Source of the DNA: an uncultured Pirellula sp.
GTDB lineage: Bacteria > Planctomycetota > Planctomycetia > Pirellulales > Pirellulaceae
Assembly: GCA_903892355.1 (NCBI GenBank)
Contig: CAITIE010000098.1
Location: 1-64,000, forward strand
DNA: 64,000 bases
Direction: 5' to 3'
Below are positions 44,101-59,896 of the stretch, in pieces (position 1 is the first letter of the stretch; each line of letters starts with the position of its first letter). A program made the translations under genes and the position numbers. The notes under the pieces were generated by a model. The model did no database searches, was not told the DNA's origin, and saw only the letters and a program-made list of their open reading frames with translations.

Positions 44101-44294
44101 AGGAAATGGCTGTCATCTCGGATCTGATTACCGAATCGCGAAATCGATTCACGCAATCGGCTGAATCGGTTGCGAAGTTCAATCAATCAGGTGCCGTCGT
44201 TGTGGATAGTAGCCTGGATGCGAATGAGGTCGCGGTATGGACGGTCATCGCCAGCGCGATCTTGAATTTGGATGAAACGATCACCAAGAGGTAA
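41133..44294 (+). CDS. PSCyt1-PSCyt2-LamG-PSD1 planctomycete cytochrome protein
   Basis: A 1053-residue exported protein. A signal peptide (about 10-33) is followed by PSCyt1 with heme motif CWSCH ('LATHCWSCHGPDEKSRQADL') and 'DRMMPPPE'. PSCyt2 spans about 150-370: 'LLRRVTLDLTGLPPTPEQLQ', 'AAQWLDLARYADTNGYNNDE' and a second heme motif CARCH in '[19 protein letters not shown]'. A LamG sandwich occupies about 435-630 ('HPFSISGWIYPTSDQGMAVL', 'WHHVVLTYDGS'). PSD1 ends the protein ('[20 protein letters not shown]', 'SRTNTPLQALVLLNDPTY'). The architecture parallels 16819-20247 but with a canonical LamG. The DUF1501 partner begins 3 bases after the stop. Confidence 0.92.
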   Translation: MKFNQPRFARLWLGLAILLSFAVMRPDVVLAETQDAKPIDYARDIQPILATHCWSCHGPDEKSRQADLRFDSREIAISTAAIVPNKPQESGLVERIHATEPDRMMPPPETKKPLSDRQKELLRQWIEQGAPYSAHWAFATPSLPKVPEVIGFIGPHSPIDAFVRERLLREGVTPSPVADRGTLLRRVTLDLTGLPPTPEQLQAFENDPSPTAYETVVDRLLASESYAEKMAAQWLDLARYADTNGYNNDEDRTMWPWRDWVIAAFHSNMPYDQFLTEQLAGDMLPSPSRSQLVASGFLRNQGHNTEGGIIQEEYRVEYVADRVHTTATVFLGLSMQCARCHDHKYDPITQAEYFQFFAILNNLEEKQASYSKFVAAEPFIRVPSESQEIELAQLDQDLANLQEQISERESASAKKFQEWLASQSDAQLMEKLGCRELYYSHLDGVEEGAIPSGSVQTVEGKFGTALGFDGDSHLVLGDQGGFEGDHPFSISGWIYPTSDQGMAVLSRMDESAAYRGYDLLVVNGKLESHLVHQWPGNAIKVVSQKTVSSNAWHHVVLTYDGSKRGAGVKLYIDGQMSPLDIPTNALSGSIATDSGKPFHLGRRETTLPFHGRIDELKIVSGELTAQDVAQLHAGKPITQVTEWIRKPMAEQTSEQQGMLKQFGLKQTDPDFGQLLNARDQKQKQRNAFADEFPAVMVMREMQPPRETFLLKRGQYDQPGDKVNAGVPQVLSSFTDVKPANRLELARWLVHPSHPLTARVAVNRLWENLFGTGLVRTTEDFGVTGEFPSHPELLDYLAVTFVQSGWDIKALLKQIVMSDTYRQESRIGAEQLSRDPENRWLGRGPRYRLSAETIRDNALAISGLLQPRVGGPSVKPYQPDGLWEDVTVERRGKYVPDRGEGAYRRSMYTFWKRTCPPPSMVSFDAPNREVCVARRSRTNTPLQALVLLNDPTYIEAARSLAMRVLRSGLPGDTEKVHAMYRASLSRNAREEEMAVISDLITESRNRFTQSAESVAKFNQSGAVVVDSSLDANEVAVWTVIASAILNLDETITKR

Positions 44295-44297
44295 CTG

Positions 44298-45725
44298 ATG
44301 ATGGATCCTTTAGATTCTCTCAAAAGCATTCAGCGAAGACGATTCCTAAAGCATTCGATTTTAGGATCGATGGCGCTGTCGCAGTTAGGTGTGGGGGAAG
44401 GTGTCGCTCATGCAGAGACAAAACCATCCCATTTCGCGCCCAAGGCGAAGCGAGTCATTTACTTGTTTCAATCGGGTGGTCCGTCGCAATTGGAGCTTTG
44501 GGATTACAAGCCCAAGCTCAAGGAGTTGCATGGCACCGAACTTCCGGACAGTATTCGGCAAGGGCAACGGTTGACCGGGATGACCTCGGGACAAAAGAGT
44601 TTTCCCGTGGTTGCGTCCAAGTTCCATTTTGCTCAAGCAGGTAGCAACGGGTATTGGATCAGTGAGTTGTTGCCACACACCTCCAAAATTATCGATCGAA
44701 TATCTATCGTGCGGTCGATGAATACCGAAGCGATCAATCATGATCCTGCCATTACGTTTATGCAGACCGGTTCTCAGCAGCCCGGGAGGCCGTCGCTTGG
44801 GGCTTGGTTGAGTTTTGGATTGGGTAGCGAAGCGGAAGAGTTACCTGCATTTGTGGTGATGATTTCCCATGGAACAGGTAACGACGCCAATCAAGGACTA
44901 CTGGATCGGTTGTGGGGAAGTGGTTTTTTGCCATCGAGCCACCAGGGGGTCAAGTTTCGGAGCGGTTCGGAACCAGTGTTGTATTTGAATGATCCGCAAG
45001 GAATAGATCGAGGTCTGCGCCGTGCCATGCTCGATCGTGTTTCACAGCTCAATGAATTGCAGCAACAGCAGGATGGGGATCCCGAGATCGCAACCCGGAT
45101 TGCCCAGTACGAGATGGCATTCCGAATGCAGGCATCGGTGCCGGAATTGACCGACTTTTCCGATGAGTCCGATGCGACGTTTGAAATGTATGGGGCCGAT
45201 TCCAAGAGGCCCGGATCGTTCGCATCCAATTGCTTGATGGCTCGTCGGATGATCGAGCGAGGGGTTCGATTCGTGCAGCTTTACCATCGTGGCTGGGACA
45301 ACCACGGGAATCTTCCATCGAACATTCCCAAGCAATGCAAGGACATTGACCAACCTCAATCCGCATTGATCAACGATTTGGAGCAACGAGGATTGCTTGA
45401 GGATACCTTGGTGATTTGGGGTGGCGAGTTTGGTCGAACCGTTTATAGCCAAGGTTCACTTCAGGACGATTACGGTCGGGATCATCATGGTCGATGTTTC
45501 ACTATGTGGATGGCGGGTGGGGGAATCAAGCCTGGTTCGGTGATTGGGGAGACGGACGAGTACGGTTACAACATCGTGCGCGACCCTGTCCATATCCATG
45601 ATCTTCATGCGACATTGCTGCATTGTTTGGGCTTTGATCACGAACGATTGACCTACCGGTACCAAGGACGCGATTTCCGTTTGACGGACGTGCATGGCAA
45701 GGTTGTCAATTCCCTCCTGGCGTGA
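44298..45725 (+). CDS. DUF1501 secreted protein
   Basis: A 475-residue protein with N-terminal '[20 protein letters not shown]', a twin-arginine-like export signal. DUF1501 blocks: '[20 protein letters not shown]', '[15 protein letters not shown]', '[20 protein letters not shown]', '[20 protein letters not shown]', '[16 protein letters not shown]' and '[18 protein letters not shown]', then '[15 protein letters not shown]'. It follows the PSCyt gene with a 3-base gap and is clearly in the same operon. It shares domain layout but limited phrase identity with the copy at 20262. Confidence 0.92.
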
Positions 45726-45743
45726 GCGATGTTCTGCAGAAGC

Positions 45744-46877
45744 TCATCGGCCTAGTTTGATCTGTGCTGCGAGCAGGTTGTGCTCGAGCTCTTTGTGATT
45801 GGTCAGGTGTGACCACGACAATCGAATGGCTCCGCTAAGTTCCGGTTCGCGAATACCCATAGCTGATAAAACGTGGCTTGGGGTGGTGCAGATTGTGGTG
45901 CACGCGGCACCGTCAGAAACGGCCAGCAATCCATGGAAGTGCTCGATCAGTTCGTCGGCGGTGAAGCCTGGGATAGAGAGGTTCACCACGTGAGGCATGG
46001 TGGCTTCTTGGCCACCGTGGATTCTTCCATCGACGGCTTGGGCCCATGCTAGAATGGTTTTTCGGATCATCAGGCAATGATCGCTACGTTGGTTTCGTTC
46101 CGTCGCGGCTAGTTGAGCGGCCAGTCCGAGACCTGCGATCAGTGGAACCGGCAAAGTTCCCGGTCGCAGTCCGAACTCTTGCCCGCCTCCGAAGGTGAGT
46201 GGAGCGAGAGGGGGTAGTTGGCCTTGTCGGCGTCGGGCGATCAACGCACCGATTCCCTGCGGTCCATGGATTTTGTGGCCGCTGACACTGATAAGATCGA
46301 TGCGAGGATTTCGCAGTGGTTCCGACTGCTTCGCGAACCCTTGGGCAGCGTCGACATGGAACAAGCAATCGCGCTGCATCAGTCCATTCGCGATTGAGTC
46401 GATAGGTTGGATGATCCCTGTTTCGTTGTTGACCTGCATGACGCTGACCAGAAGCGTATCGTCTCGTACTGCATGGAGCAGTTCGTTCGGATCGATTTGA
46501 CCGCTGCTTTGTGGACGAATCAGCGTGACTTCGAAACCTTGTTTGCGAAGAGCCTGGAGAGGTTCGAGGACCGCTTTATGCTCGATCATCGAACTTACCA
46601 AATGCATCTTTCCCGTTTCTTTACCATGCGCTGCGGCACCCAGGATCGCGAGATTATTGCTCTCCGTTGCGCCGCTAGTGAATACGATTTCGTGGCGGCG
46701 GGCCCCGACTATTTGTGTGAGTTGTTCCCGAGCCAAGCTGACCAGTTGTTTGGCCTGTTCGCCAAATTCATGGGGGCTGCCCGCGTTGCCGTATACTGCG
46801 TCAAAGACCCGAATGATTTCTTCACGAACTCTCGGTTCGATCGGGTTGGTTGCGTTGCAGTCAAGGTAGATCGCCAT
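45744..46877 (-). CDS. NifS/DndA-like cysteine desulfurase
   Basis: A 377-residue class-V aminotransferase-fold PLP enzyme that would move sulfur from cysteine to a protein persulfide. It shows 'IYLDCNATNPIEPRVREEII', 'FTSGATESNNLAILGAA', His100 in 'SSMIEHKAVLEPL', 'FHVDAAQGFAK' and the PLP Lys202 in 'SVSGHKIHGPQGIG'. The mobile Cys loop reads 'SDGAACTTICTTPSHVL' with C326 in the catalytic place and an extra C330. The opening resembles DndA more than housekeeping IscS/SufS, but no dnd genes are present. It is the last gene of the nine-gene operon, 6 bases after the cyclase. I infer it supplies sulfur for Fe-S clusters or for a sulfur-containing product. Confidence 0.88.
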   Translation of the reverse strand: MAIYLDCNATNPIEPRVREEIIRVFDAVYGNAGSPHEFGEQAKQLVSLAREQLTQIVGARRHEIVFTSGATESNNLAILGAAAHGKETGKMHLVSSMIEHKAVLEPLQALRKQGFEVTLIRPQSSGQIDPNELLHAVRDDTLLVSVMQVNNETGIIQPIDSIANGLMQRDCLFHVDAAQGFAKQSEPLRNPRIDLISVSGHKIHGPQGIGALIARRRQGQLPPLAPLTFGGGQEFGLRPGTLPVPLIAGLGLAAQLAATERNQRSDHCLMIRKTILAWAQAVDGRIHGGQEATMPHVVNLSIPGFTADELIEHFHGLLAVSDGAACTTICTTPSHVLSAMGIREPELSGAIRLSWSHLTNHKELEHNLLAAQIKLGR

Positions 46878-46883
46878 GAGGCA

Positions 46884-48809
46884 CTAGTTCTGATGGCTGT
46901 GTTCGGGAAACAGCATGGTTGAAATGGAGCGGGCTCGATTCAGGGCGGCTACAGTGTAAACCAGCGGGTAGAGTTTCTCAAAATACCAGAGCTTGGCAAA
47001 GTAAAACCCGATGGGGGACGCAGGAAAATCTGTCCCGGATCGCGTTGCGGATAAAAGCCAATGGAGCCCGGATTGGATTGCGGACAGGGTTGCTGCATGA
47101 TCGGAGTCCGATAATAGCTTGGAGTTTGGTAGCATCAATGCATGCTCGGAAATGCACGCAGTCAGCGATTCGATTGCCAACGCTGTTTCCTCGATGGAGG
47201 AAGGGACATCGGATTGGCCACCCCATCCACCGTCGGGATTTTGCGAGCGAAGAATCCATTTCAGTCCTGCGGTGAATTGGGGCCTCGGTAGTTCCGCGTG
47301 GTGGCCTATCGTGCAAAGAAGTGCGAGCAACACACGGCTGGTTCCGTAGGTACGATTGGATTCGTCTGGGGCGAATTGGTTGCCGAACCAAAGAGGGGTC
47401 CAAGCTCCATCGGGTTCTTGTCGCTTTGATAAAAACTGCAACGCTGCTCGAACGGATTTGTCGATTTTCGATTGTGTCGATGTGGGCAAGCGGGTTTTCC
47501 AAACGATCATCGCGCGAATTGCGTGCGCCGTGATGTCAGGGTTGCTGCGGTCGAATGGCAAGGTGCCCCAACCGCGGCAGAACGTCGGAATCCCTCCATC
47601 GCGATTTTGCAATCCGATCAGCCATTCGATGCCAGCTTCTGCACGCTTTGCAATACGAGCAGCATGTAAGGGAGATTGTTGAGTGATAGCATCGAGAGCC
47701 AGAATCGCTCCGGGAGTATCATCGGCATCGGGGACCCCTCCAGAAAGAGGCGTCCAAGCCCATCCGCCCGGCGCGGCATCGGTGTAGGGGTGGCGGGTCG
47801 TGTATTGCTGGTCGATCAACCATTGTTCCAAAGCATCGATGCCAGATTGCCCGAGATGTGTTTCGAACTCGTCAGAATGCGAGAGGGCGTTGATTGCCAG
47901 CGTGGATACCCATGTGGCGAGATGCGTATCGATGGGCCAACTCCCATCACTTCTAGCAGACTGGATCAGGAATTGGACGCCGTTCTCGACGACGGGATGA
48001 GTCTCTTCTCCAGCTCCGATCAGACTCATGGAGACAAAGCTAGTCAGCGGGGTTGCTTCTAAAAAGCCACCTGTCGTCGGTTGGATCGATTGAAGTACTT
48101 TTAAAGTTTGGCTGGTCACCAAGCTTCGCAGGGTTCGGCCGACTGGGTTCCACGAGGGTTGTTTGCGATGTTTTACGAGACCAATGGCGATCAGGGCAGG
48201 AAGAGCGTAGCTGACGACCGGCAGACGCATGGCCGCGAACCAACTTTTGGGGCATGCGGCGAGTTCGAATGGCAATTGGGGTACGAGATTCCAAGCCTTT
48301 GGCGATTCTCCGAGCCTGCCAGTCAGAGCTAGGGCAGTAAGGATGGGGACGGAGAATGTTTGATCTTTTCCGTAGCGACGTCGAATGGCGGGGGCGAGGA
48401 CTTCGGGGGTGGTACCACCTGCATGCTTTTCAATCCACGCGGTCGCAAGGCGATTGGTATGGTCGAATTCCTCTCGCGTTTGGTGCAATGCTCCCCAACA
48501 AAGAAGGGTGGTACTGATGTTGCTGAGGCTCTGAACTGTATCGCCCCATCCGCCGTCTTTGTTTTGAAACGTCTTAAGCCACTGGCGGCCTTGTTCAATG
48601 AGACGCGTGATCGTTTCACGGCGATGGTTGGTAAGGTCGCCTCGCGATTTTGCAAATGCTTCGAGGGCGATGACAGCGGTTGCTGTGGAAAGAGCGCTGC
48701 TGGAGAGTTCGCCTTCCCAGTATCCTTTTGGATTTTTAGCTGCGAGTAACGATGATTGCGCGTTCCGGCGCATCGTCTCGAAGGTGGAGGCTGCGATGGG
48801 CGTGTTCAC
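46884..48809 (-). CDS. Squalene-hopene-cyclase-family class II terpene cyclase
   Basis: A 641-residue protein, the length of bacterial squalene-hopene cyclases. The GTG start at 48809-48807 overlaps the TGA of the upstream gene (GTGA); the longer ATG-less frame to 49277 is antisense-like and Arg-rich. The protonating DxDD motif is intact as D-A-D-D at about 361-364 ('GGVPDADDTPGAILALDA'), close to its place in known SHCs. QW-type repeats recur: 'QNKDGGWGDTVQSLS', 'GSWPIDTHLATW', 'QEPDGAWTPLWFG' and 'QNPDGGWGGQSDVPSSIEET'. This fold makes an alpha/alpha double barrel that cyclises polyprenyl substrates at the membrane. Other hopanoid genes (hpnC/D/E, hpnH-type) are not seen here, so squalene is not assured as substrate. 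Confidence 0.85.
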   Translation of the reverse strand: MNTPIAASTFETMRRNAQSSLLAAKNPKGYWEGELSSSALSTATAVIALEAFAKSRGDLTNHRRETITRLIEQGRQWLKTFQNKDGGWGDTVQSLSNISTTLLCWGALHQTREEFDHTNRLATAWIEKHAGGTTPEVLAPAIRRRYGKDQTFSVPILTALALTGRLGESPKAWNLVPQLPFELAACPKSWFAAMRLPVVSYALPALIAIGLVKHRKQPSWNPVGRTLRSLVTSQTLKVLQSIQPTTGGFLEATPLTSFVSMSLIGAGEETHPVVENGVQFLIQSARSDGSWPIDTHLATWVSTLAINALSHSDEFETHLGQSGIDALEQWLIDQQYTTRHPYTDAAPGGWAWTPLSGGVPDADDTPGAILALDAITQQSPLHAARIAKRAEAGIEWLIGLQNRDGGIPTFCRGWGTLPFDRSNPDITAHAIRAMIVWKTRLPTSTQSKIDKSVRAALQFLSKRQEPDGAWTPLWFGNQFAPDESNRTYGTSRVLLALLCTIGHHAELPRPQFTAGLKWILRSQNPDGGWGGQSDVPSSIEETALAIESLTACISEHALMLPNSKLLSDSDHAATLSAIQSGLHWLLSATRSGTDFPASPIGFYFAKLWYFEKLYPLVYTVAALNRARSISTMLFPEHSHQN

Positions 48810-49675
48810 AAGCTCAGGTGTCCCAGTGAAAGCAGTCCATAGTAGGTGTATTCGATATCGAGTGCGTCGTCTTCCCAGGTTCCGAAGAAGCCACCCCGCG
48901 CGGTCCAAAGAGTATCGAGGAAATCGAGGCAATGCTCTTTGATCGGTTCGATGTCGAATTGCGCATCGCCCAGCGCATGGAGTGCAACGGCCGTAGATAG
49001 GAGATCCGGCATTGGGATTCCTGGACCTACCACAAAACCTCCATCGGGGTGAATGCAAGAGAGTAGCCATGGTTGGATATCGGGATCGCTCGGTTCGCCG
49101 AGGTGGCGCAACAAGGCCGATGCGGCCGCCGTCGGGGGGACCAGTCCAAAGGGCATATCTTTGCTGTTGGCGTATCCGCCGTCGTCCGCCTTGAGCGAAC
49201 GGATGCATTCCAGCATGGCTTCGGAGTTCGGAACGGACTGCTGGACGTCTTGCGCGGCGCTCAGCGCGACAAAGCATCCGTAAAGAGTACCGCTGGGGTC
49301 ACCGGCATCGGTACCGTACCCACCATCCGGGGTACGGAAGGCAGCGAGTCGATCCATGACGCGTTGGGAGAGATCGATCGGTCGAGCGTCGGCGGGCAAT
49401 CCGGCCCAGCACCTGGCGAGGCAGGATAGTTCGACGAGTGCAAGGCTATCGAGCTTAGTCATCCACCCGTTCAGGTATCTGGCAAGCGAATCGACCGGCA
49501 AGGGCAATTGGAGGGCCATGATGCCGGCGATACCGAAGGTCGTGTAATAGATGTCGCTTCGACCTGCGCGATCGCAGAAGCCGCCGTCTTGATGTTGCTG
49601 GCTAACGAGAAAATCAGCCACTAACTGCGTTGAGTCCCCCAACATGTCCGGTGACAGTCGGGCGACCTGCAGCAT
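48806..49675 (-). CDS. Prenyltransferase-beta-subunit-like alpha/alpha-barrel protein
   Basis: A 289-residue protein built of squalene-cyclase/prenyltransferase repeats: 'QQHQDGGFCDRAGRSDIYYT', 'FRTPDGGYGTDAGDPSGTLY', 'LKADDGGYANS', 'CIHPDGGFVVG' and C-terminal 'DIEYTYYGLLSLGHL'. The layout is that of geranylgeranyl transferase type II beta subunits, whose zinc is held by Asp, Cys and His. Here the usual 'YHT' is 'YYT', so the zinc site may be incomplete. It could be a small cyclase-like partner or prenyl-binding protein. ATG 49675 with GAGG 6 bases upstream is preferred over GTG 49693; both overlap the upstream gene. Its stop overlaps the cyclase's GTG. Confidence 0.75.
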   Translation of the reverse strand: MLQVARLSPDMLGDSTQLVADFLVSQQHQDGGFCDRAGRSDIYYTTFGIAGIMALQLPLPVDSLARYLNGWMTKLDSLALVELSCLARCWAGLPADARPIDLSQRVMDRLAAFRTPDGGYGTDAGDPSGTLYGCFVALSAAQDVQQSVPNSEAMLECIRSLKADDGGYANSKDMPFGLVPPTAAASALLRHLGEPSDPDIQPWLLSCIHPDGGFVVGPGIPMPDLLSTAVALHALGDAQFDIEPIKEHCLDFLDTLWTARGGFFGTWEDDALDIEYTYYGLLSLGHLSL

Positions 49676-51359
49676 TTCGAGCCTCAAACTCACTGCACCA
49701 GTCCTTTACTTCCATAGTAAAAATCTTGCTGATGACACGACGCAGGAGACCTTTGAGGCTGGTGTTATCCAGTTTGGCCAAGCAGCGGATGGCTTGTTCC
49801 TTGTAGGACTCTTGGAGTGTCCGGCATCGGTCGCCGATTCCGTATTCGTGAAAGAGCGTGTCGATCTTTGCCAGATCGTCGGAGGTGCACTGACGTCGCC
49901 AAGCTCGTTCGACGATCGCTAGTTCGGCGGGGTTTGCTTTGACGCGTTCATGGAGAATCGCTAGGGGGAGTGAAGGCCGGCCGGCGACGAGATCGTTGGT
50001 CACCGAGCCGTTGTTCATATCCTCGACGTCATCTCGGATTTGGTAGGCGATACCGAGAGCTTCGCTGAACTCCGAGATGGTTTGGCAGGTTTCGGGATCG
50101 TGTTGCACGAGGTTCGCACCGAAGAGCAAGGCGACTTCGAAGGCAGGGGAGGTCTTTTGCCGGAATATGTCGAGTACTTCGAGGGAGGACAACGGGCGGG
50201 GATTTCGGGCCCATTGAAATTCGGCACCTTGGCCGAGGCACAAGGTGCGGTGTCCGGAGGTGGCAACACGCAGGATCGAAGCGCGTTGACGGTCTGGGAC
50301 ATCGCAGTCACCGATGAGTGCGTAGCCATCGCCGAGCAGCAAATCGCCCAAGTTGAGGGCGACAGCGACTCCATGTTCCGAATGCAGAGTTGGTTCGCCG
50401 TACCGGAAGTCATCGCCGTCTTCGATATCGTCGTGTACCAAGGAGGCTTTATGGAAACATTCGGCCGCCACTGCCAATTTCTTCAGAGAGTCGGGCATGG
50501 CGTGGTCTGAGTCTGGGTTGAGTGCTTTCCAAACACACGCGGTTAAGAACGGTCGCCATCGTTTTCCATCTTTGGCAAGCCACGCGCGAGCGAGCCTTTC
50601 GGTCTCATTCTTGGTCGGGCCCATGATGGAATCGAGTTGGCTTGGCTCAAACCAAGATTTGACCTCAGTGCGGAGTTCGTCGAGGTTGAGACGATAGGTG
50701 CGGTCATCGCTGGTGAGGTGGATCACTTCCCAGATCCATTCCAGATCGACGGTGACGTCCTTGCAGTCGTCTTGGAGCAGCGGAATGGCTACGCCTGGAA
50801 TTGCTGCGGCTTCCATGTAAGGATGAGCTTTTTCGAGCACCGACAAGCAGCTCACGCCGACGATGGCATCGATCTTGCCTGTTTCAATGATGGCCATGAC
50901 CAGTGCAGAGCCTTCGGCGACGAGCACGGCGTATCCGAGATTCTCCGCTTCTTCTTGGAGTTCTTGGATGGTGCACAGACCACATTGCTTGCACAACAGA
51001 CCGAACTCATCGAAGGGGGCTGGGCATTTGTCTTCGATGCGAAGGCATTTTGGTAGGAGGAGCAATCGTCGTTCGAAAGGTACGGTCGCCAATTGATCGC
51101 GCCATACTTCGCCGTTGAGCAGGACGATGGTGTAATCGACGTACTTTGGATCGATGTTATGTTCTGAGACAAACAGTTCGGAGACGCGCCGAAGCTCTTG
51201 GGTGGAGAGGGGCGGTACCGGCTTATGTTTGGCGATGAAGGATCGCAAGTTGGATCGGAGGGACTCTCGTTCCGCGCGCGTCTGAGGAATATTTTCCTTG
51301 GGCTGACGTTCCTTTTGAACGGGAACTGCGCGTGGCAAGCTCAATACGGGCAACTGCAT
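49614..51359 (-). CDS. DUF116-polyprenyl synthetase fusion protein
   Basis: A 581-residue two-domain protein. Residues about 70-215 match DUF116: 'LLLLPKCLRIEDKCPAPFDE' followed by 'GLLCKQCGLCTIQEL', 'AENLGYAVLVAEGSALVMAI' and 'IDAIVGVSCLSVLE'. Cysteines C105, C112, C123, C126, C129 and C171 suggest a metal or Fe-S site. Residues about 250-530 are an isoprenyl diphosphate synthase: 'KRWRPFLTACVW', first Asp-rich motif DDIED at 310-314 in 'KASLVHDDIEDGDD', second motif DDVED at 443-447 in 'GIAYQIRDDVEDMNNG'. Small residues (A305, S306) before the first motif favour C20 or longer products. It would make the chain used by the cyclase genes. The fusion of a redox-type domain to a prenyl synthase is unusual. 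Confidence 0.85.
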   Translation of the reverse strand: MQLPVLSLPRAVPVQKERQPKENIPQTRAERESLRSNLRSFIAKHKPVPPLSTQELRRVSELFVSEHNIDPKYVDYTIVLLNGEVWRDQLATVPFERRLLLLPKCLRIEDKCPAPFDEFGLLCKQCGLCTIQELQEEAENLGYAVLVAEGSALVMAIIETGKIDAIVGVSCLSVLEKAHPYMEAAAIPGVAIPLLQDDCKDVTVDLEWIWEVIHLTSDDRTYRLNLDELRTEVKSWFEPSQLDSIMGPTKNETERLARAWLAKDGKRWRPFLTACVWKALNPDSDHAMPDSLKKLAVAAECFHKASLVHDDIEDGDDFRYGEPTLHSEHGVAVALNLGDLLLGDGYALIGDCDVPDRQRASILRVATSGHRTLCLGQGAEFQWARNPRPLSSLEVLDIFRQKTSPAFEVALLFGANLVQHDPETCQTISEFSEALGIAYQIRDDVEDMNNGSVTNDLVAGRPSLPLAILHERVKANPAELAIVERAWRRQCTSDDLAKIDTLFHEYGIGDRCRTLQESYKEQAIRCLAKLDNTSLKGLLRRVISKIFTMEVKDWCSEFEARNAAGRPTVTGHVGGLNAVSG

Positions 51360-51388
51360 AGTGATTTATTCCTACCCTGCGAAGGGGA

Positions 51389-52579
51389 TCATGTGTACGC
51401 GCCAAAACCAAAGTACCAGTGCTTCTTTGCGAAGCGATAAACCCAGTGCTCTTCTGGGATTTCGAAACCAGGCTGATGCTGACTGGTTCGCGGTTCCAGG
51501 GCCTCGAGTTCCGCGAGGGCTGTGCCTCGCTGGGTCGTATCGGACGCACCGTGTTTTTGGACCAATAGTTTTACCAGATCTGGCCGCTCAAGCACTACGC
51601 ATCCGCGTGTGGCTTGGGCGGAAACCTTCCGGAAATCATCCAGAAACTCCGACTTGGACATGATTTGGTAGACACTCGGGCCATCATGGATGGTTTCGCG
51701 TGCAAACTGGATGATCGGGCAGGGTTCGATGGAGCCAGATGGGCCGATATGGTGGCTAACCCCGGTGGCCATTGGGCAAAGGGCTTCGCCCCGATCGTCC
51801 CAATAGGGTTCGACGATCCCGATAGGGACTTTTTTCCGCATTTGCACAATGAACCGTCTCAGCCGAACGATTTCTTCCGGGGACAGCGCCAGTTCGGCGG
51901 ATGGTTTGGGACCGACGACGCGGTAGGTATGGAACCACGCGTAATGGACACCCATATCGATCAATCGGTGCAGCCACTGCTCGCTGACTAGGTCGATATT
52001 CGTTTTGCAGACGCTGGTAGCCACGCCGACGATGAGTTTGTTGTCGACACAGTTTTTCACCCCAGCAAGTGTTTTGTTGAGCACGTTTTTGGCACCGCGG
52101 CGTTCATCGCTGACGACGTCGGTACCTTCGATACTGATGAGGGGTGTGGCATTGCCGACTCGTCGCAATTCTTTTGCGACTTTATCGGTGATCAGTTGGC
52201 CATTGGTGAAGATTTGGAAGTAGCAGTCGGGGTGCGACGCGAGCACTTCGAGCAAATCGGGGTGCATGAACGGTTCACCACCGAGGATTCCAAAGTAGCT
52301 GTTGCCGTGTTTCTTCGCGTCGTTGATCAGTCGGTTCAGATCCTCTTTGCTGATCATCTTTCGAGGGGAAGCGACGTCCACCCAACAACCTTGGCAGCGA
52401 AGCTGGCAGCTGTTGATGATCGAGATGAACAGAAAGGGAGGAAAGTGGATCCCTTGCTTGAGGCGTTTTTTGTACTTCTGAACCGATCGCATGCCTTTGA
52501 AGCCGAAATTGTAAGCGAACTTCCAGAGAAGTCGCTTATCGATTTCGTTGAACATGCGGTAGGCGAGTCGAGCGACCAT
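51389..52579 (-). CDS. Radical SAM protein
   Basis: A 396-residue protein. The [4Fe-4S]-SAM motif is C58-x3-C62-x2-C65 in 'IINSCQLRCQGCWVDVA'. It is followed by the 'GGEPFMHPDLLEVL' block (SAM amino group contact), 'FTNGQLI' and 'LISIEGTD'. A C-terminal Cys cluster ('EALCPMATGVSHHIGPSGSI', then 'EPCPII' and 'RGCVVL') resembles a SPASM/twitch auxiliary cluster region. The N-terminal basic amphipathic stretch may touch membrane. It is not an obvious HpnH, whose motif and context differ. Within the operon it lies 29 bases before the DUF116-prenyl synthase, so I infer it modifies a prenyl or cyclised terpenoid. Confidence 0.85.
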   Translation of the reverse strand: MVARLAYRMFNEIDKRLLWKFAYNFGFKGMRSVQKYKKRLKQGIHFPPFLFISIINSCQLRCQGCWVDVASPRKMISKEDLNRLINDAKKHGNSYFGILGGEPFMHPDLLEVLASHPDCYFQIFTNGQLITDKVAKELRRVGNATPLISIEGTDVVSDERRGAKNVLNKTLAGVKNCVDNKLIVGVATSVCKTNIDLVSEQWLHRLIDMGVHYAWFHTYRVVGPKPSAELALSPEEIVRLRRFIVQMRKKVPIGIVEPYWDDRGEALCPMATGVSHHIGPSGSIEPCPIIQFARETIHDGPSVYQIMSKSEFLDDFRKVSAQATRGCVVLERPDLVKLLVQKHGASDTTQRGTALAELEALEPRTSQHQPGFEIPEEHWVYRFAKKHWYFGFGAYT

Positions 52580-52704
52580 AGGACTATGCTTCGTTGGGCG
52601 GTGCTTCGGGGAATCGAAATCAGGGTGCGGAAATTTCGAAGGGTGTTGGGGTTTGGAGGGTAGGTTTGCTGCGATGGTATTTTCAAAGCATGGAAGCGGA
52701 TGGT

Positions 52705-53619
52705 TTATACGTTCTTGTTTTGAGCGTTCATCTGCAATGCTTCTTGCGCCTTTTGCTTGGCCTTTTCAGCGCGTTCTCGGATGGAGTCAGCGCTAGGTAG
52801 GCTACTTAGGACTTCGGCGGGGATGTCGAGTCCTTCGATGTTCTGTTGCAATTTGGTCAAGCAACGTTGTCGTTCTTTGAGGGCTCTATCATCGTCACGT
52901 TCCTTGGAGAATCGGGACTTGGCTTTCGCGCTTCGATCTCGAAGCATCGAGTAGATGTCTCCGCCTAGGAGCGAAGAAATGTCGACTTTCATCGCTTCGC
53001 GACGGACGTCGTCCGAGCTGATCTCATCACCGTTGATGGGGCCGGCTTTGTATTTGGGGAACAGGATCGCCACTTCCGGGCAGACTCGAGAGCACGCCGG
53101 GCAGTCCGTTTTGCAGTTGGATTGGTTTTGAACGGTGATTTGGCCAGCTTTGGTCACGCCATAGACATCGAACAGGCAAAAGCTGAGGCACTGCATGCAA
53201 TTGGTGCATCGGTCGTAGTCGATGACAGGAAACCAAGGTTTCCATCGCGGGCTTTTGGGATCGGCCGGAGAGCTGTTGCCGCTTGAGTCTGCGTCCTCTC
53301 CATCGGCGAGTTTGGAGACATCATCGACCAGTTCGCAGATGGCTGAGAGGGCAAGCCCGTCAACGTTGCGTACGTGGACTTGGGTGTCGGATTGAGCGTC
53401 GGTTGCGAGTGGGCTTACTGCTTGTTCGAAGGCTCCCAGCACCAAAATGTGAGGTTGTTGAAACTTCGAAAGGGCTCCATTCGGTTTGACTGAGCTTACG
53501 AGGAACCCGCGGTCGAGCAGTGTTTGCGTCAGTTCCAAACGAAGTTCCGCAGGTAGAGGGCGGCTATCGCGACCTTCGTAGAGGACAACACGCAGAGTGG
53601 ATGATTTTCTGGCGATCAT
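52705..53619 (-). CDS. 2x[4Fe-4S] ferredoxin-type protein
   Basis: A 304-residue soluble protein. The N-terminal 100 residues are a small alpha/beta domain of unknown type ('HILVLGAFEQAV'). Two clusters follow: C138-x2-C141-x2-C144-x3-C148 ('CTNCMQCLSFC') and C169-x3-C173-x2-C176-x3-C180 ('CKTDCPACSRVCP'). A long charged C-terminal helix region (about 210-300) may form a coiled coil. It would carry low-potential electrons, perhaps to the radical SAM protein. An AGGAGG at 53626-53631 lies 6 bases before the ATG, and the start overlaps the upstream stop (ATGA), so expression is coupled and strong. Confidence 0.85.
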   Translation of the reverse strand: MIARKSSTLRVVLYEGRDSRPLPAELRLELTQTLLDRGFLVSSVKPNGALSKFQQPHILVLGAFEQAVSPLATDAQSDTQVHVRNVDGLALSAICELVDDVSKLADGEDADSSGNSSPADPKSPRWKPWFPVIDYDRCTNCMQCLSFCLFDVYGVTKAGQITVQNQSNCKTDCPACSRVCPEVAILFPKYKAGPINGDEISSDDVRREAMKVDISSLLGGDIYSMLRDRSAKAKSRFSKERDDDRALKERQRCLTKLQQNIEGLDIPAEVLSSLPSADSIRERAEKAKQKAQEALQMNAQNKNV

Positions 53620-54026
53620 GCGGATCCTCCTGAGAGCGAAGATTCCGCAGGTGCGGATTCGCCCGATGAACTCGATGCATCTGGGGTGGCGTTGCTAAAA
53701 CCGGGCGTCAATCGTTGGCAAATGGTCTGGGCGTCGTCGGTCCGCATGTTCAGGACTTCGACCCCTTCGGTCGGAAGGGGGGCCCCGGCCGCCGAGAATA
53801 GCCACTTTACGGCTCGTGGGTAGCACGCGACCACAGTGAGGTTTCCTTGCGCGGCCAAATCGACGAGTGTCGGATCTTTGCGGGCTGACATTTCACAGAG
53901 ATCTCCGACGGCATCGAAGGGCTCTGCGGAATGAACCAAGTGCTTTAGGACGTCGTTCTTGACATCGTCAGGAACCACACGTGCGAAAGCACAGCGACAA
54001 AACAGAACGGACCGTTGAGGTTTCAT
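53616..54026 (-). CDS. Small cysteine protein resembling the HdrA N-terminal domain
   Basis: A 136-residue protein. It opens 'VLFCRCAFARVVPDDVKNDV' (C10, C12), continues 'DAVGDLCEMSARKDPTLVDL' (C44) and 'LTVVACYPRAVKWLF' (C68), and ends in a Ser/Pro/Gly-rich tail. The Cys-x-Cys, then Asp-Leu-Cys, then Ala-Cys-x-Pro order recalls the N-terminal Fe-S-binding domain of heterodisulfide reductase subunit A. The match is by eye and moderate. Its 3' end overlaps the ferredoxin start by 4 bases, which suggests a two-protein redox unit. Confidence 0.6.
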   Translation of the reverse strand: MKPQRSVLFCRCAFARVVPDDVKNDVLKHLVHSAEPFDAVGDLCEMSARKDPTLVDLAAQGNLTVVACYPRAVKWLFSAAGAPLPTEGVEVLNMRTDDAQTICQRLTPGFSNATPDASSSSGESAPAESSLSGGSA

Positions 54027-54101
54027 CCGGGTTATTTGGCCTTGGTGTGCGGGCTGCTGTCTGGACGTTGGAACCGAGGAAGTTGCAATGCGGGCGTCTG
54101 T

Positions 54102-55247
54102 TTAAACTTCAGCCAATCGGTGGGTGGGATTCGGACGTGAGGGGCGGAATGCTTCGACCAGCACTTCCTGACCGGTCAGTCTAAGTTGGGCGAGGAGGGC
54201 ACGCAAGCTACTATCGGCTAGGTTTCGCATCAGTTCGGGGGACGCTTCGGCCCGGAAATTCAGAAGGAGTGTACCCTCGGAAAGTGGTTCTTGAAGTCGA
54301 TGGGATTGCTCGACGGAAAAATCGTCCCGGACGAGATTGGCGACGCCGACGTCGTTACCTTGCGATGGCGTTAATGTTGCCTTCAAGTGGGCGATCCGCA
54401 TGCCATCCGCCGAGGAGTCGGAAACGCGTTTCTGCAAATCCGACAATAGATTGATGAGAAACTCGTTTCCATCAAACTCGTTTCCACCCAGTTGGACGGT
54501 CATGTTGAGCCATCCCAGGAGGGCTTCCCCGTCGGCGTATAGGTCATAGTCCACATCCATCTGGCCAAGCCGCCTGAGGGCGTTCGGAGTCGATCCATAG
54601 TTCTGTATCGCATCGAGCCACGCTTCGACGCCGTCGCCTGATCTGGCAGACATCGTGAGGACTTGTGCTCGTGGGTACTTTGCCTGAAGCGTTTCGACGA
54701 GCGTCTTGAGTTCTTCAGGCTCGAGGAGCTCTCGTTTGTTCACAACCAGGATGTCGGCTTCTTCGAGTTGCTTCTCGTAGATGTACGTCACCTTTGGTGA
54801 AAAAGATTTTCCCGACTTTAGACCCAAGACGCGTTGGACTCGTACCGGGTCAACCAAGACGCTCAGGGGTGAGACTCCGAACTGATCGCCGTACATTTTT
54901 CGAAGTGGCAGAACCACTGTCGCGAACAAATCGGTGCAGCTGCCGACCGGCTCAGCGAGAAAAACATCTGGACGGGATGCGTTTTCGAGTCGCTGGCTGG
55001 CTTCGACAAGGCTAGGAAAGCGACAGCAGAAGCATCCACCGGTTATTTCCTCGGTGGGGAACCCGTGGGAAGCCAGCATGACAGTGTCAACAAGCCCTTG
55101 GCTTTGGTCATTGGTGATCAGGCCGACACGGAGTCCACGCTGGCTGATGATTTCAGCAGCTTTGAGGATCGCGGTGGTTTTGCCGGCTCCGAGAAAACCG
55201 CCCACCAGAATGTAGTTGGAATTTAGCACTTGCCCTTCTTCTCCCAT
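54102..55247 (-). CDS. CobW/COG0523-type metallochaperone GTPase
   Basis: A 381-residue G3E GTPase. The P-loop is 'GGFLGAGKTT' (about residues 16-25), then 'GLITNDQSQGLVDT' and the metal-binding Cys-x-Cys-Cys 'GGCFCCRF' (C72, C74, C75). It continues with 'DVFLAEPVGSCTD' and the guanine-specificity motif 'VVNKREL' (Arg-Glu in place of x-Asp). Family members deliver Zn, Co, Ni or Fe to target enzymes. ATG 55247 lies 25 bases inside the upstream gene's end; the longer frame to 55379 is Arg-rich and rejected. Within the operon it may load a metal onto one of the Cys-rich proteins. Confidence 0.85.
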   Translation of the reverse strand: MGEEGQVLNSNYILVGGFLGAGKTTAILKAAEIISQRGLRVGLITNDQSQGLVDTVMLASHGFPTEEITGGCFCCRFPSLVEASQRLENASRPDVFLAEPVGSCTDLFATVVLPLRKMYGDQFGVSPLSVLVDPVRVQRVLGLKSGKSFSPKVTYIYEKQLEEADILVVNKRELLEPEELKTLVETLQAKYPRAQVLTMSARSGDGVEAWLDAIQNYGSTPNALRRLGQMDVDYDLYADGEALLGWLNMTVQLGGNEFDGNEFLINLLSDLQKRVSDSSADGMRIAHLKATLTPSQGNDVGVANLVRDDFSVEQSHRLQEPLSEGTLLLNFRAEASPELMRNLADSSLRALLAQLRLTGQEVLVEAFRPSRPNPTHRLAEV

Positions 55248-55765
55248 GGTCCGCCATCCCCTTCGTTCGGTGGTTCTTCTTCGCCGCTTTGAGATTCGCC
55301 GTGCCCTTCGCCCGTTTGGCTCAAAATACGATCGACTGCTTGGTCCAAGAGCGCCACATAGCCAGCGCAATCGACGCATGTTTTATCTGGGGTTCCTCGG
55401 ACCATGAACAGCCACCCGCGATCGTATGCATCTTTATCCACCAGTTCCGGTTTCTTGTTCAACTCAGTATTGAACCCTGCAAAGTCCCCCTCGGCCACGC
55501 AAAAGATGTCCGCGACGGCCTTGAACCCCTCCACCCAGCCGATGGTCTGACCGATTTTGACCGAATCGCCTTCGGGGATCTGGAACTCACATTCCACGAA
55601 ATCGCCCAGCATGCGGGTCGCAAAATGGGTCAGACCCACTCGCCACAAACCTGGTTCGACCTGCAAAAGCCAAAAGTGGGAGCGTGCATAGAGGTAATGG
55701 GTCGGCAGTCGGGTTGTAAACCGTGCACGCCTGTAGTACTGCGTTCGAGCGGGATCGATTGGCAT
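55223..55765 (-). CDS. GcvH-like lipoyl-carrier protein with Cys-containing tail
   Basis: A 180-residue protein from ATG 55765. It matches glycine-cleavage H proteins: 'WLLQVEPGLWRVGLTHFATR', 'MLGDFVECEFQIPEGDSVKI', 'GQTIGWVEGFKAVADI' with the lipoyl-acceptor Lys at K82, and 'NKKPELVDKDAYDRGWLFMV'. A tail follows with C130-x2-C133, an acidic Gly-rich linker and a terminal Cys180. No GcvT or GcvP genes are near. Known relatives outside glycine cleavage include LbpA, which works with the sulfur-oxidising heterodisulfide-reductase-like system. As first gene of the operon it may carry a sulfur or aminomethyl group; this is inference. A TTG at 55858 gives a longer but less credible N-terminus. Confidence 0.75.
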   Translation of the reverse strand: MPIDPARTQYYRRARFTTRLPTHYLYARSHFWLLQVEPGLWRVGLTHFATRMLGDFVECEFQIPEGDSVKIGQTIGWVEGFKAVADIFCVAEGDFAGFNTELNKKPELVDKDAYDRGWLFMVRGTPDKTCVDCAGYVALLDQAVDRILSQTGEGHGESQSGEEEPPNEGDGGPWEKKGKC

Positions 55766-55974
55766 CAGCCCCGAGAACCTTTCTTCGTAGGATAACTCGC
55801 CGCGGATAGACAGCAAAATCACTTGGACGAAGTGTAACCGACACCCATGATCTCGCAATCCGAAGCCGGTCGAAGTGTTGCCTTAGTCCTAGAACTAAAT
55901 CGGATCGTACGACTCGCCCTGCGCGGTGGGTATCCGTTTCTGTGTGCTGAATCTTATTCTTTGTACCAGAACTT

Positions 55975-56060
55975 ACCCTAGCGGAACTTGCCGTGACGGA
56001 ACTTGCCGTAGTGGATCTAGCCGTAGTGGATCTAGCCGTAGTGGATCTTGCTAAAGATCC
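55975..56060. repeat. 15-bp tandem repeats ending in a perfect hairpin
   Basis: Units of gccgtagtggatcta repeat at 56005, 56020 and 56035, preceded by two diverged units at about 55975-56004. The array ends in ggatctt-gcta-aagatcc (56043-56060), a perfect 7-bp stem nearly identical to 2581-2598. The array lies in the 470 bases between the nine-gene operon (minus) and the gene at 56235 (plus), so it may overlap their promoters. The rest of 55859-56234 shows no gene. Confidence 0.8.
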
Positions 56061-56234
56061 GGTGAATCCCTGCTTCACGAAGAATTAGACTGCAAATCGG
56101 GAAAATTTTGGAAAGAATCGTTGACAAAACATCGCACCTTCCGAACTATACTGTGTTGTTAGGATTGCCCTTAGTGGGTTGTCCCTCGTTTCCGGCGACG
56201 CTTTTGTAAACCTACCGATCGGTGACACGCGATC

Positions 56235-56726
56235 ATGCTGGTTGTTCCCTACGACATGAACAGGCATTCGACGCGGCTTTCGCGTTGTTCGTTCGGTCGT
56301 TTGGGGGCCACGTCCGTTACCCTTTTGGCGTTTTTGGTCATGGGGTTCTTCGCTCTGTGCGAGGATGCATTTGCGAAGTGCGGTGCGTCGACCCGTCAAA
56401 TGATTTGGAAGACAGGGTCCTCCTCGGACTTGTTGACGTGGGATGGGACTACCGCCACACGCGATAATGCAGCATCCTCCGGTGCTTCCATGGATTCGAT
56501 GGAGCATGGAGAGCGTGAGTGCACGCGTTGCCGTTGTCGCAAGGAAAGCGAACGACCCTTGTTTCCAGATTTGGATTTGGTAAAGACATCGCAGCAACCG
56601 TTTGTGTCTTGCGATGATTTGAATGGTATTGAGGGGACTGCACCTCTCGCTGATTGTGTTTCTATAGTCGATGCGACATTCTTCGGTCGCGTGCTTGGCG
56701 AACTGGAACGCCCGCCTAGGTCTTAG
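56235..56726 (+). CDS. Small secreted hypothetical protein
   Basis: A 163-residue protein with a signal peptide ('SVTLLAFLVMGFFALCEDAFA', about residues 26-46, shown in two parts: hydrophobic core then AFA cleavage site). The mature part is Ser/Asp-rich with a Cys cluster 'ECTRCRCRKES' and later single cysteines, which may form disulfides. No family recognised. An ATG at 56256 is an alternative start. It precedes the DUF1559 gene by about 250 bases on the same strand, without a clear operon link. Confidence 0.5.
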   Translation: MLVVPYDMNRHSTRLSRCSFGRLGATSVTLLAFLVMGFFALCEDAFAKCGASTRQMIWKTGSSSDLLTWDGTTATRDNAASSGASMDSMEHGERECTRCRCRKESERPLFPDLDLVKTSQQPFVSCDDLNGIEGTAPLADCVSIVDATFFGRVLGELERPPRS

Positions 56727-56974
56727 TGCGTCATTTTGGGGGGCTGTCGTTGATCGGCTCAGTGTGCGACTCCGGCATTGGAGTCTCCCCAACTCAGGAC
56801 TTTGTTGTTAGCGAAGTTCTTTTTTGCGACCCTCGGCATCGTACTCCGGTGAGTTCCGCTGATGGTCACACGACGTACCGTGAAACCAAGTTGTTTCATG
56901 CTGGCCATGGTTGATGGCTGTTGACCTAGTCTGAATTTCTATTCACTGCAATTATCGAGAAAATCGTATTTATC

Positions 56975-57970
56975 ATGAAACATAATTCTCAAACGCGAAC
57001 TGCGTTTACACTCGTCGAGCTCCTCGTTGTGATCGCCATCATCGGAATCCTGGTCGGGTTGCTTTTGCCGGCTGTCCAAGCGGCTCGTGAGGCTGCACGT
57101 CGAATGAGCTGCACCAACAACATGCGGCAAGTCATGCTGGCGGCTCTCAACTACGAATCGGCCTACAAGCGACTTCCAGCGTCGCGCGTTTCCCGAACCC
57201 CGGATCCACTGGGCCCGGCCAGTTCGATCTCGGTCCATGCGAGACTTTTGACCTTCATGGAACAGAACCAAATTTACAACACCATCAACTTTGGAGTTGA
57301 GTGGAATGACCCAACGAACGACAACGCTCGATTGACGAATGTCGCGACGTTTCGATGTCCCTCCGATCCATCCACCAATGTTCCGGTGAGCGTCGGTGGC
57401 GCGAATAACTACTACGTTAACTCTGGCACCGTGCCTCTCTGGGGCCGTACGACCGCCAATCCGATGCCACAAGTTCCAGCCAATGATGGGGTTTTCTACC
57501 GGGACTCCTTCTTGAAGCTCGCCGCGATTACCGACGGGATGAGCAACACTGCTGGATTTTCTGAGCGATTGACGGGTGACTTCAGCCAAACCAAAGTCAC
57601 TCCGAAGACGGATACCTTCCAACCTGGTACGCAACCATTCACTGCGGATCAAGCATACGCAGATTGCTATGCGATCAATTTGCAGGATGTCAGCAAGCAA
57701 GGTTTTTCGGACATTGGTGCACCTTGGATTCGGGGTTATCACTCGACGACCGAGTATTACCACATCGCTCCACCGAATGGTCGTTCGTGCATGTACCCGC
57801 CAGGACGGATCATGACCACTGCCAACTCTCAGCACGGAAACAGCGTGAACATGGTTTTTGTGGATGGATCCACCCACACCGTGCCAGCATCGATCGATAT
57901 GCAAGTTTGGCGAGGCATCGGGACTCGCGCTGGTGCTGAGCAAGCTGGGGCAGCGAATATCACTGAGTAG
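56975..57970 (+). CDS. DUF1559 prepilin-like protein
   Basis: A 331-residue protein. The N-terminus '[20 protein letters not shown]' is a type IV prepilin cleavage/N-methylation motif with the following hydrophobic helix. It continues '[20 protein letters not shown]', the DUF1559 hallmark. The globular beta-rich C-terminal domain ends '[20 protein letters not shown]', then '[12 protein letters not shown]', again standard for the family. The family is hugely expanded in planctomycetes and is thought to form surface or pseudopilus-like structures. No pilus assembly genes are adjacent. Confidence 0.95.
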
Positions 57971-58104
57971 ATTGCAGTTCTGAAATTCGCGGTTCTGAAA
58001 TTCATTGAAGGCCTTTGCCGCTGAGTCGTACTGACATTATTCATGCGACTCCAAGTACCTATCCCAAATCGAACTAACCCAGGAAAATGTGAACGACAGG
58101 TTGC

Positions 58105-59682: not shown

Positions 59683-59896
59683 AGCGATTTCTAGCCTGGT
59701 CGCCTTGGGAGAAGTATCTAACGGTAACCGTAACGTAGAGGCTAATCTGCAAGCGGCGAGCGGTGCTTGTGTGCGCGGTCCCGTTTTTAGGCATTGGTAC
59801 ACATCCGAACGGCTAGGGGCTATATTGGTTCGAAAATCTCTCCATCGAGTCTCTCGACCGAGCGGCTCGATTCGTTTCGGATCAGGAATTGTAGCT

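Follow-up and report, generated by a model that had tools for sequence, protein, structure and literature searches.

A conserved nine-gene operon from a Pirellula genome as a candidate for an undescribed polyprenoid pathway

What a bacterium might make with a prenyl chain synthase, a class II terpenoid cyclase, a radical SAM enzyme, iron-sulfur (Fe-S) proteins and a lipoyl carrier, all encoded side by side, is the question raised by a locus in an uncultured Pirellula sp. (assembly GCA_903892355.1, contig CAITIE010000098.1). The locus comprises nine genes at positions 45744-55765 of the window, the 64,000-nt forward-strand stretch that was analyzed (Table 1). An earlier reading of this DNA, made from the letters alone and referred to here as the original prediction, described nine minus-strand genes forming an operon with overlaps and short gaps. 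All nine open reading frames (ORFs) were present on the minus strand, and in operon order the gene models are spaced by -25, 75, -4, 125, 29, -62, 32 and 6 bases, i.e., with overlaps of up to 62 and gaps of up to 125 bases. If the cyclase gene starts at its alternative GTG codon at 48809, its overlap with the stop of the preceding gene would be 4 bases.

Eight of the nine proteins were assigned by Pfam (families GCV_H, cobW, 4Fe-4S ferredoxin, Radical_SAM, DUF116 with polyprenyl_synt, Prenyltrans, SQHop_cyclase_N/C and Aminotran_5), the exception being the small cysteine protein at 53616-54026, which we call HdrN. The cut-offs of the NCBIfam models that would name the cyclase, the desulfurase, the carrier and the radical SAM enzyme were not reached. 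Our best explanation, which we regard as fairly probable, is that the nine genes make up a single operon whose polyprenoid pathway has apparently not been described, in which a long polyprenyl chain would be cyclized and modified by radical SAM chemistry. That the genes serve one pathway is strongly indicated by the genome comparisons, which showed that they are an evolutionarily linked set in which the catalytic motifs of the synthase and the cyclase, the lipoyl lysine and the likely Fe-S ligand cysteines have been kept.

Table 1. Genes of the locus in operon order, with window coordinates and the evidence for each assignment
Feature	Coordinates	Strand	Evidence
GcvH-like lipoyl carrier, 180 aa, EGFKA lysine	55223..55765	-	PF01597 73.8 bits
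CobW-family GTPase, GGCFCC motif	54102..55247	-	PF02492 83.7 bits (on longer frame to 55379)
HdrN, small 4-Cys protein (CxC, C44, C68), predicted Fe-S protein	53616..54026	-	cysteine conservation
2x[4Fe-4S] ferredoxin with N-terminal extension	52705..53619	-	Fer4_10 29.7 bits, cut-off 25.5
Radical SAM enzyme, CxxxCxxC + C268, C287, C327	51389..52579	-	PF04055 57.9 bits
DUF116 + trans-polyprenyl diphosphate synthase fusion (synthetase)	49614..51359	-	PF01976 117.9 bits, PF00348 131.1 bits
Prenyltransferase-beta/SHC-like alpha-alpha barrel protein (PTb)	48806..49675	-	PF00432 58.5 bits
Divergent class II (DxDD) terpenoid cyclase	46884..48809 (GTG start) or from 48773 (ATG)	-	PF13243 132.5 bits
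Cysteine desulfurase, DndA-like	45744..46877	-	TIGR03235 431.2 bits

The fusion synthetase was sought in 392 genomes of the planctomycete phylum, and the neighborhoods of 40 matches were fetched and gene-called with a codon-usage ORF caller. Twenty-nine of these loci, with synthetase identities of 48-61%, were designated group A, and the other 11 (32-42%) group B or intermediate. The usual order was carrier, CobW GTPase, HdrN, ferredoxin, (radical SAM enzyme), synthetase, PTb, cyclase, (desulfurase). The carrier, CobW GTPase, HdrN, ferredoxin, synthetase and PTb genes occurred together in 23 of the 29 group-A stretches, several of the other six being short contigs. To be scored as linked, the eight core genes (all but the desulfurase) had to share a strand and lie within 9 kb; only loci whose flanks extended 6 kb or more to either side of the middle of the synthetase gene were used, and HdrN fused to ferredoxin was not scored as HdrN in this count. 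On this count all eight core genes were linked in 14 of 18 group-A loci with enough flank and in none of the 11 group-B or intermediate loci. Of the 392 genomes, 42 gave an HdrN match, comprising all 39 with a synthetase match at E ≤9e-116 (a threshold placed at a clean gap, group-B matches reaching 1.7e-105) and three, G075, G243 and G355, with a weaker or partial synthetase.

When the radical SAM alignment was used to scan named genomes, at least 562 relatives were returned at E 1e-3 or better, and the best 80 of these (62-85% identical) were studied as loci. These came from Planctomycetota, Acidobacteriota, Verrucomicrobiota, one Hydrogenedentota contig (L112, with six genes of the set before the contig ends) and two oddly labeled sources. 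The synthetase was also present in 53 of the 80, and all eight core genes were linked in 22 of the 32 loci with enough flank. That the same gene set recurs in so many genomes shows that it is no product of chance. Seventeen genomes in which the set appeared dispersed were then searched whole: 15 whose locus held the radical SAM gene alone, plus L132 and L138, two of six loci with only ferredoxin and HdrN beside it. The synthetase was found in all 17 (E <1e-200) and HdrN in 16, the HdrN counted for L132 and L138 being the one inside the locus. That the genes are kept in the same genome even where they are no longer closely linked is the strongest evidence that they function together. The single-pathway idea is strongly supported both by conservation of the neighborhood, the test proposed earlier, and by retention of the genes when split; some scatter, proposed earlier as a sign against it, is seen in the loci considered below.

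The same data bear on whether the locus could be two unrelated modules, one of carrier, CobW GTPase, HdrN and ferredoxin and one of terpenoid enzymes, brought by accident under one promoter. Gene order is variable and group B has cyclase and synthetase without HdrN, as such a pairing would allow, but the co-occurrence of HdrN with the synthetase in 39 of 39 genomes of one phylum, and their retention together in 16 of the 17 dispersed genomes, make this reading highly improbable.

In a tree of the radical SAM enzyme with 87 rows (the window and 86 of the 120 loci; untitled loci, loci in which the enzyme was not matched and sequences that were short or broken were left out), Verrucomicrobiota formed one clade (100/99). 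The window was one of five planctomycete rows, two of them titled Pirellula, that formed a clade (100/100) nested in a mixed set of 26 from Planctomycetota and Acidobacteriota (97/89). It was separate from the group-B copies found in its family, which indicates that this family has two forms of the set; the program warned of long branches in other parts of the tree. The two odd labels look like mislabeled bins: L086, titled Bacteroidales, groups with two Gemmataceae rows, and L144, titled Proteobacteria and outside the tree, is suspected solely from its place among verrucomicrobial matches of similar identity.

Returning to the proposed polyprenoid pathway, its first enzyme would be the synthetase. 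The synthase part matches polyprenyl_synt and has both aspartate-rich motifs expected of a trans-polyprenyl diphosphate synthase, with D310, D311 and D314 of DDIED and D444 and D447 of DDVED invariant in 39 aligned rows, and seven cysteines of the DUF116 part (C105, C112, C123, C126, C129, C171 and C199) are likewise invariant in that alignment. Ala305 and Ser306 precede the first motif, whose region reads HKASLVHDDIED, and Ala305 is a small residue five positions before it. A small residue at this position permits chains longer than C20, which suggests that the synthase product is longer than C20; the enzyme would thus supply a linear polyprenyl diphosphate of that length. The predicted structure of the DUF116 part had a mean predicted local distance difference test score (pLDDT) of 86.1.

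The cyclase would close one end of this chain by protonation, bypassing squalene. The DxDD motif noted in the original prediction is real: it lies in VPDADDT, with D348, D350 and D351 invariant in 30 rows of the family alignment, and in a profile alignment PDxDDT falls on PDVDDT of squalene-hopene cyclase (SHC; chain 1gsz). Against TIGR01507, the SHC model, the cyclase scored 111.7 bits with a cut-off of 431.1. The adjacent PTb barrel protein matched class II cyclase chains and RabGGTase beta in a profile search of the PDB, and may serve as a partner of the cyclase or a holder of the chain. Protein prenylation by PTb seems unlikely, as two zinc ligands are apparently lost: compared by eye with the known motifs, the Asp is kept (D224), and Leu and Tyr appear to stand at the Cys and His positions. 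A Pfam scan of the nine proteins found no further terpene synthase family.

The cyclase might instead belong to a divergent hopanoid-type pathway, using squalene from synthases encoded elsewhere in the genome while the other genes tailor the triterpene. The absence of a squalene synthase, noted earlier for the window, stood for the operon, but the same genome carries two squalene/phytoene synthase (SQS_PSY) genes on another contig (G000:C104:10736-12537, L167), beside ispH (LytB family) and the second in one frame with an amine-oxidase-family domain, an arrangement we read as HpnC/D/E-like. Since the window cyclase is also this genome's only SHC-family place above 40 bits, squalene could be the substrate when this genome is taken alone. 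Among the 57 genomes with a group-A, intermediate or group-B synthetase, SQS_PSY was found in 42 but was absent from 15, five of which belong to the 19 high-quality genomes (completeness ≥90%, contamination ≤5%), so that a squalene supply is not common to every cluster genome. Of 19 cluster genomes, 17 carried a cluster-type cyclase scoring above 500 bits, and a further, lower-scoring cyclase place was seen in 10; five second cyclases were tested and all were canonical SHCs (647-702 bits, cut-off 431). The operon, moreover, has its own prenyl synthase gene, and according to the accessible text of PMC12078418 the squalene of P. limnophila goes to C30 carotenoids. Based on the genomes lacking SQS_PSY and the coexistence of the cluster cyclase with canonical SHCs, a plain hopanoid reading is unlikely, and the divergent form is also quite improbable. 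One verrucomicrobial SHC cluster has been interpreted as hopanoid in the accessible text of PMC8692599; it might belong to the present family.

In the polyprenoid pathway favored here, the radical SAM enzyme would act after cyclization. All six of its cysteines, those of CxxxCxxC and three toward the C-terminus, are invariant in 31 rows. Among the 25 listed of 49 NCBIfam families, the enzyme reached no cut-off and scored best with NirJ/AhbC-type models; with TIGR03470 (HpnH) it scored 36.1 bits, the cut-off being 225.05. Its nearest solved relatives by profile search were SkfB (75.6 bits) and cytosylglucuronate decarboxylase (65.9 bits). Directly upstream of the synthetase in three loci (L044:3033-4592, L051:7548-9080 and L061:7718-9241) stands another type of radical SAM gene, the L051 copy of which was nearest to the B12-binding/radical SAM model TIGR04013 (74 of 251 bits). 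The usual enzyme was missing from these three genomes or gave only a 75-bit match, and two of them (G107 and G145) retained the cyclase elsewhere. This apparent non-orthologous replacement, in which a different radical SAM enzyme stands in where the usual one is absent or weakly matched, argues for a radical step as part of the pathway.

Electrons would reach the radical SAM enzyme via HdrN and the ferredoxin, and probably also the DUF116 domain. C44 and C68 of HdrN are invariant, and C10 and C12 are kept in at least 90% of 24 rows; the eight cluster cysteines of the ferredoxin are kept in at least 90% of 36 rows. HdrN gave no Pfam or NCBIfam match. Its AlphaFold2 model (mean pLDDT 87.6) retrieved with Foldseek the heterodisulfide reductase complex chains 7bkd_A, 8rvu_A and 8rvy_A (probability 0.82-0.84, E 0.04-0.08, TM-score <0.45), which from their length we take to be HdrA, among many unrelated Rossmann-like matches. 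Profile-search matches to 8cwy and 8cws were rejected as repeat artefacts (single segments of at most 7.5 bits), and nothing else in the PDB was better than E 0.16. The cysteine protein of the original prediction was there, its likeness to HdrA was weak, and HdrN is at most a possible relative of the HdrA N-terminal domain. The proposed pairing with the ferredoxin gained support from fusions of the two in L044 and L062-L065. Three group-B ferredoxins (L066, L069 and L070) have, before the clusters, a region that resembles HdrN by eye and lacks the cysteines.

The lipoyl carrier and the CobW GTPase would provide a dithiol, a reductant or a metal for one step. The carrier fell below two NCBIfam GcvH cut-offs (82 of 117 and 71.7 of 115.85 bits), and the genome has a separate GCV_H place at 136.9 bits. 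The lipoyl lysine, K82, is invariant in 22 rows, one of which is this genome's own canonical GcvH, and the GTPase family keeps GGFLGAGK and GGCFCC. In five acidobacterial loci (L078, L084, L085, L087 and L107) a lipoate-protein-ligase-type gene lies divergent from the desulfurase, with an LplA-B_cat Pfam match in the three checked, supporting a lipoylated carrier. The desulfurase scored below the TIGR03235 (DndA) cut-off of 480 bits and kept the AC of its active-site loop in 16 rows. It would provide sulfur at least for Fe-S clusters and possibly for the product.

In its fuller form, the original prediction pictures a cyclic prenyl lipid that bears sulfur, which the desulfurase and the lipoyl carrier would deliver through the radical SAM enzyme, somewhat as in lipoyl synthase. 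The carrier is near-constant (16 of 18 planctomycete group-A and 30 of 32 named-genome loci), a lipoate ligase lies beside some loci, and desulfurase-profile matches occur in 49 of 120 loci, weak and opposite-strand ones included. The desulfurase is, however, the least constant member, linked by the same strand and 9-kb rule in 10 of those 18 and 15 of those 32 loci, and may only build Fe-S clusters; lipoyl synthase was not among the 25 listed of 49 NCBIfam families, where NirJ/AhbC-type models scored best, and the nearest solved relatives are the two named above. We consider this version unlikely.

Instead of a membrane lipid, the product could be a redox cofactor with a lipid tail, such as a quinone-like carrier, which would suit the many redox proteins and the spread of the set over widely different bacteria. 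In the same-family group-B loci L070, L071 and L072 (e.g., L072:10984-11529), the gene directly downstream of the synthetase resembles by eye what we take to be an Rv2949c-type chorismate lyase, but its L072 copy had no Pfam or NCBIfam match and the gene was not grouped in any group-A locus. A product that is specifically a redox cofactor seems rather unlikely. More broadly, the pathway probably ends in a cyclic lipid or a lipid-tailed cofactor. The order of events in the original prediction is plausible: the chain would be made, cyclized and then altered by the radical SAM enzyme, with electrons supplied by the Fe-S proteins.

Several observations weigh against the assignment of all nine genes to one polyprenoid pathway. 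The support consists of gene linkage and motifs, and we infer all of the chemistry. The estimate of chain length depends on a general rule applied to Ala305, a search of the PDB with the DUF116 fold gave nothing at E ≤0.001 and no clear structural relative, and a squalene route may be available in the 42 genomes with SQS_PSY. Among the named-genome loci, 27 of 80 had no synthetase in the fetched stretch, including 15 with the radical SAM gene alone and three near contig ends (L113, L126 and L145), and the comparison of 17 dispersed genomes had no negative control from Verrucomicrobiota genomes lacking the radical SAM gene. No match to the radical SAM enzyme was found in G036 and G041, both partial assemblies. 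Group-B loci of the window's own family and class are looser, with several genes non-adjacent, and HdrN was not found in eight other genomes of the family (synthetase 37-43% identical), in a search that scored no more than 11 preliminary candidates in each genome, such that absence is not proof. The group-B loci without HdrN and with non-adjacent genes also indicate that not all nine genes are indispensable.

A bolder proposal, which we offer tentatively as a serious possibility, is that the set represents a new branch of terpenoid metabolism across phyla, leading from a DUF116-fused synthase through a class II cyclase without squalene to a radical SAM step, served by an HdrN-ferredoxin and lipoyl relay, and so to an undescribed lipid or cofactor. 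If true, its product may be needed widely in soil and water bacteria. That the set is kept widely, often on one strand, and retained jointly when split points to a molecule of some importance. DUF116, listed in Pfam only as uncharacterized, becomes testable, and a candidate lipid biomarker is offered.

Within the window, the operon is met by a plus-strand gene pair (41133-45725) that by eye resembles planctomycete DUF1549 and DUF1501 proteins; the second, DUF1501-like gene converges on it, ending 18 bases from its last stop codon. A plus-strand ORF at 59705-62038 resembles the penicillin-amidase family by eye. No Rfam RNA reached the gathering threshold in 44000-58000, promoter and terminator scans were at shuffle level (5 versus 5.2 and 13 versus 13.4), and neither of two ORFs tried as a hidden gene upstream of the carrier exceeded any Pfam cut-off. 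Viral carriage was rejected, the viral contigs scanned giving no match to the radical SAM enzyme. A flavoprotein accompanies five loci (L047, L053, L054, L056 and L106); the only copy tested (L106:4331-5590) was nearest to models of the halogenase CmlS and geranylgeranyl reductase.

No description of this gene set was found in the open-access papers searched, including the accessible text of PMC10632474, although subscription papers or preprints may contain one; within the papers searched, the combination could be matched to no described pathway, as originally proposed. Its features apparently match those of no described class II terpenoid pathway.

The Bacillus sesquarterpene route comprises heptaprenyl diphosphate synthase, YtpB and tetraprenyl-beta-curcumene cyclase. 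As in that route, a long-chain prenyl synthase here would feed an SHC-family cyclase, but the nine genes include no further terpene synthase and add Fe-S, lipoyl and radical SAM functions. With sHdr-LbpA sulfur oxidation and HdrABC the set shares a GcvH-like lipoyl protein, a ferredoxin and possibly an HdrA-like element; unlike them, it has no HdrB or HdrC match among the nine proteins and at most a piece like the HdrA N-terminal domain. The radical SAM lipid enzyme GDGT-MAS (PDB 7tol) was matched at 37.1 bits by profile search and has the same type of core, although the window enzyme is closer to SkfB and cytosylglucuronate decarboxylase. The hopanoid pathway has in common with the present set a DxDD class II cyclase of the SHC superfamily, and its HpnH is a radical SAM enzyme acting on a polycyclic terpenoid. 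Here, by contrast, both enzymes score below the cut-offs of the hopanoid models, 15 of 57 genomes have no SQS_PSY and a canonical SHC coexists in five of five tested. SHC-type clusters of soil bacteria are at risk of being misread as hopanoid clusters; the present set has a distinct cyclase, one that occurs alongside a true SHC.

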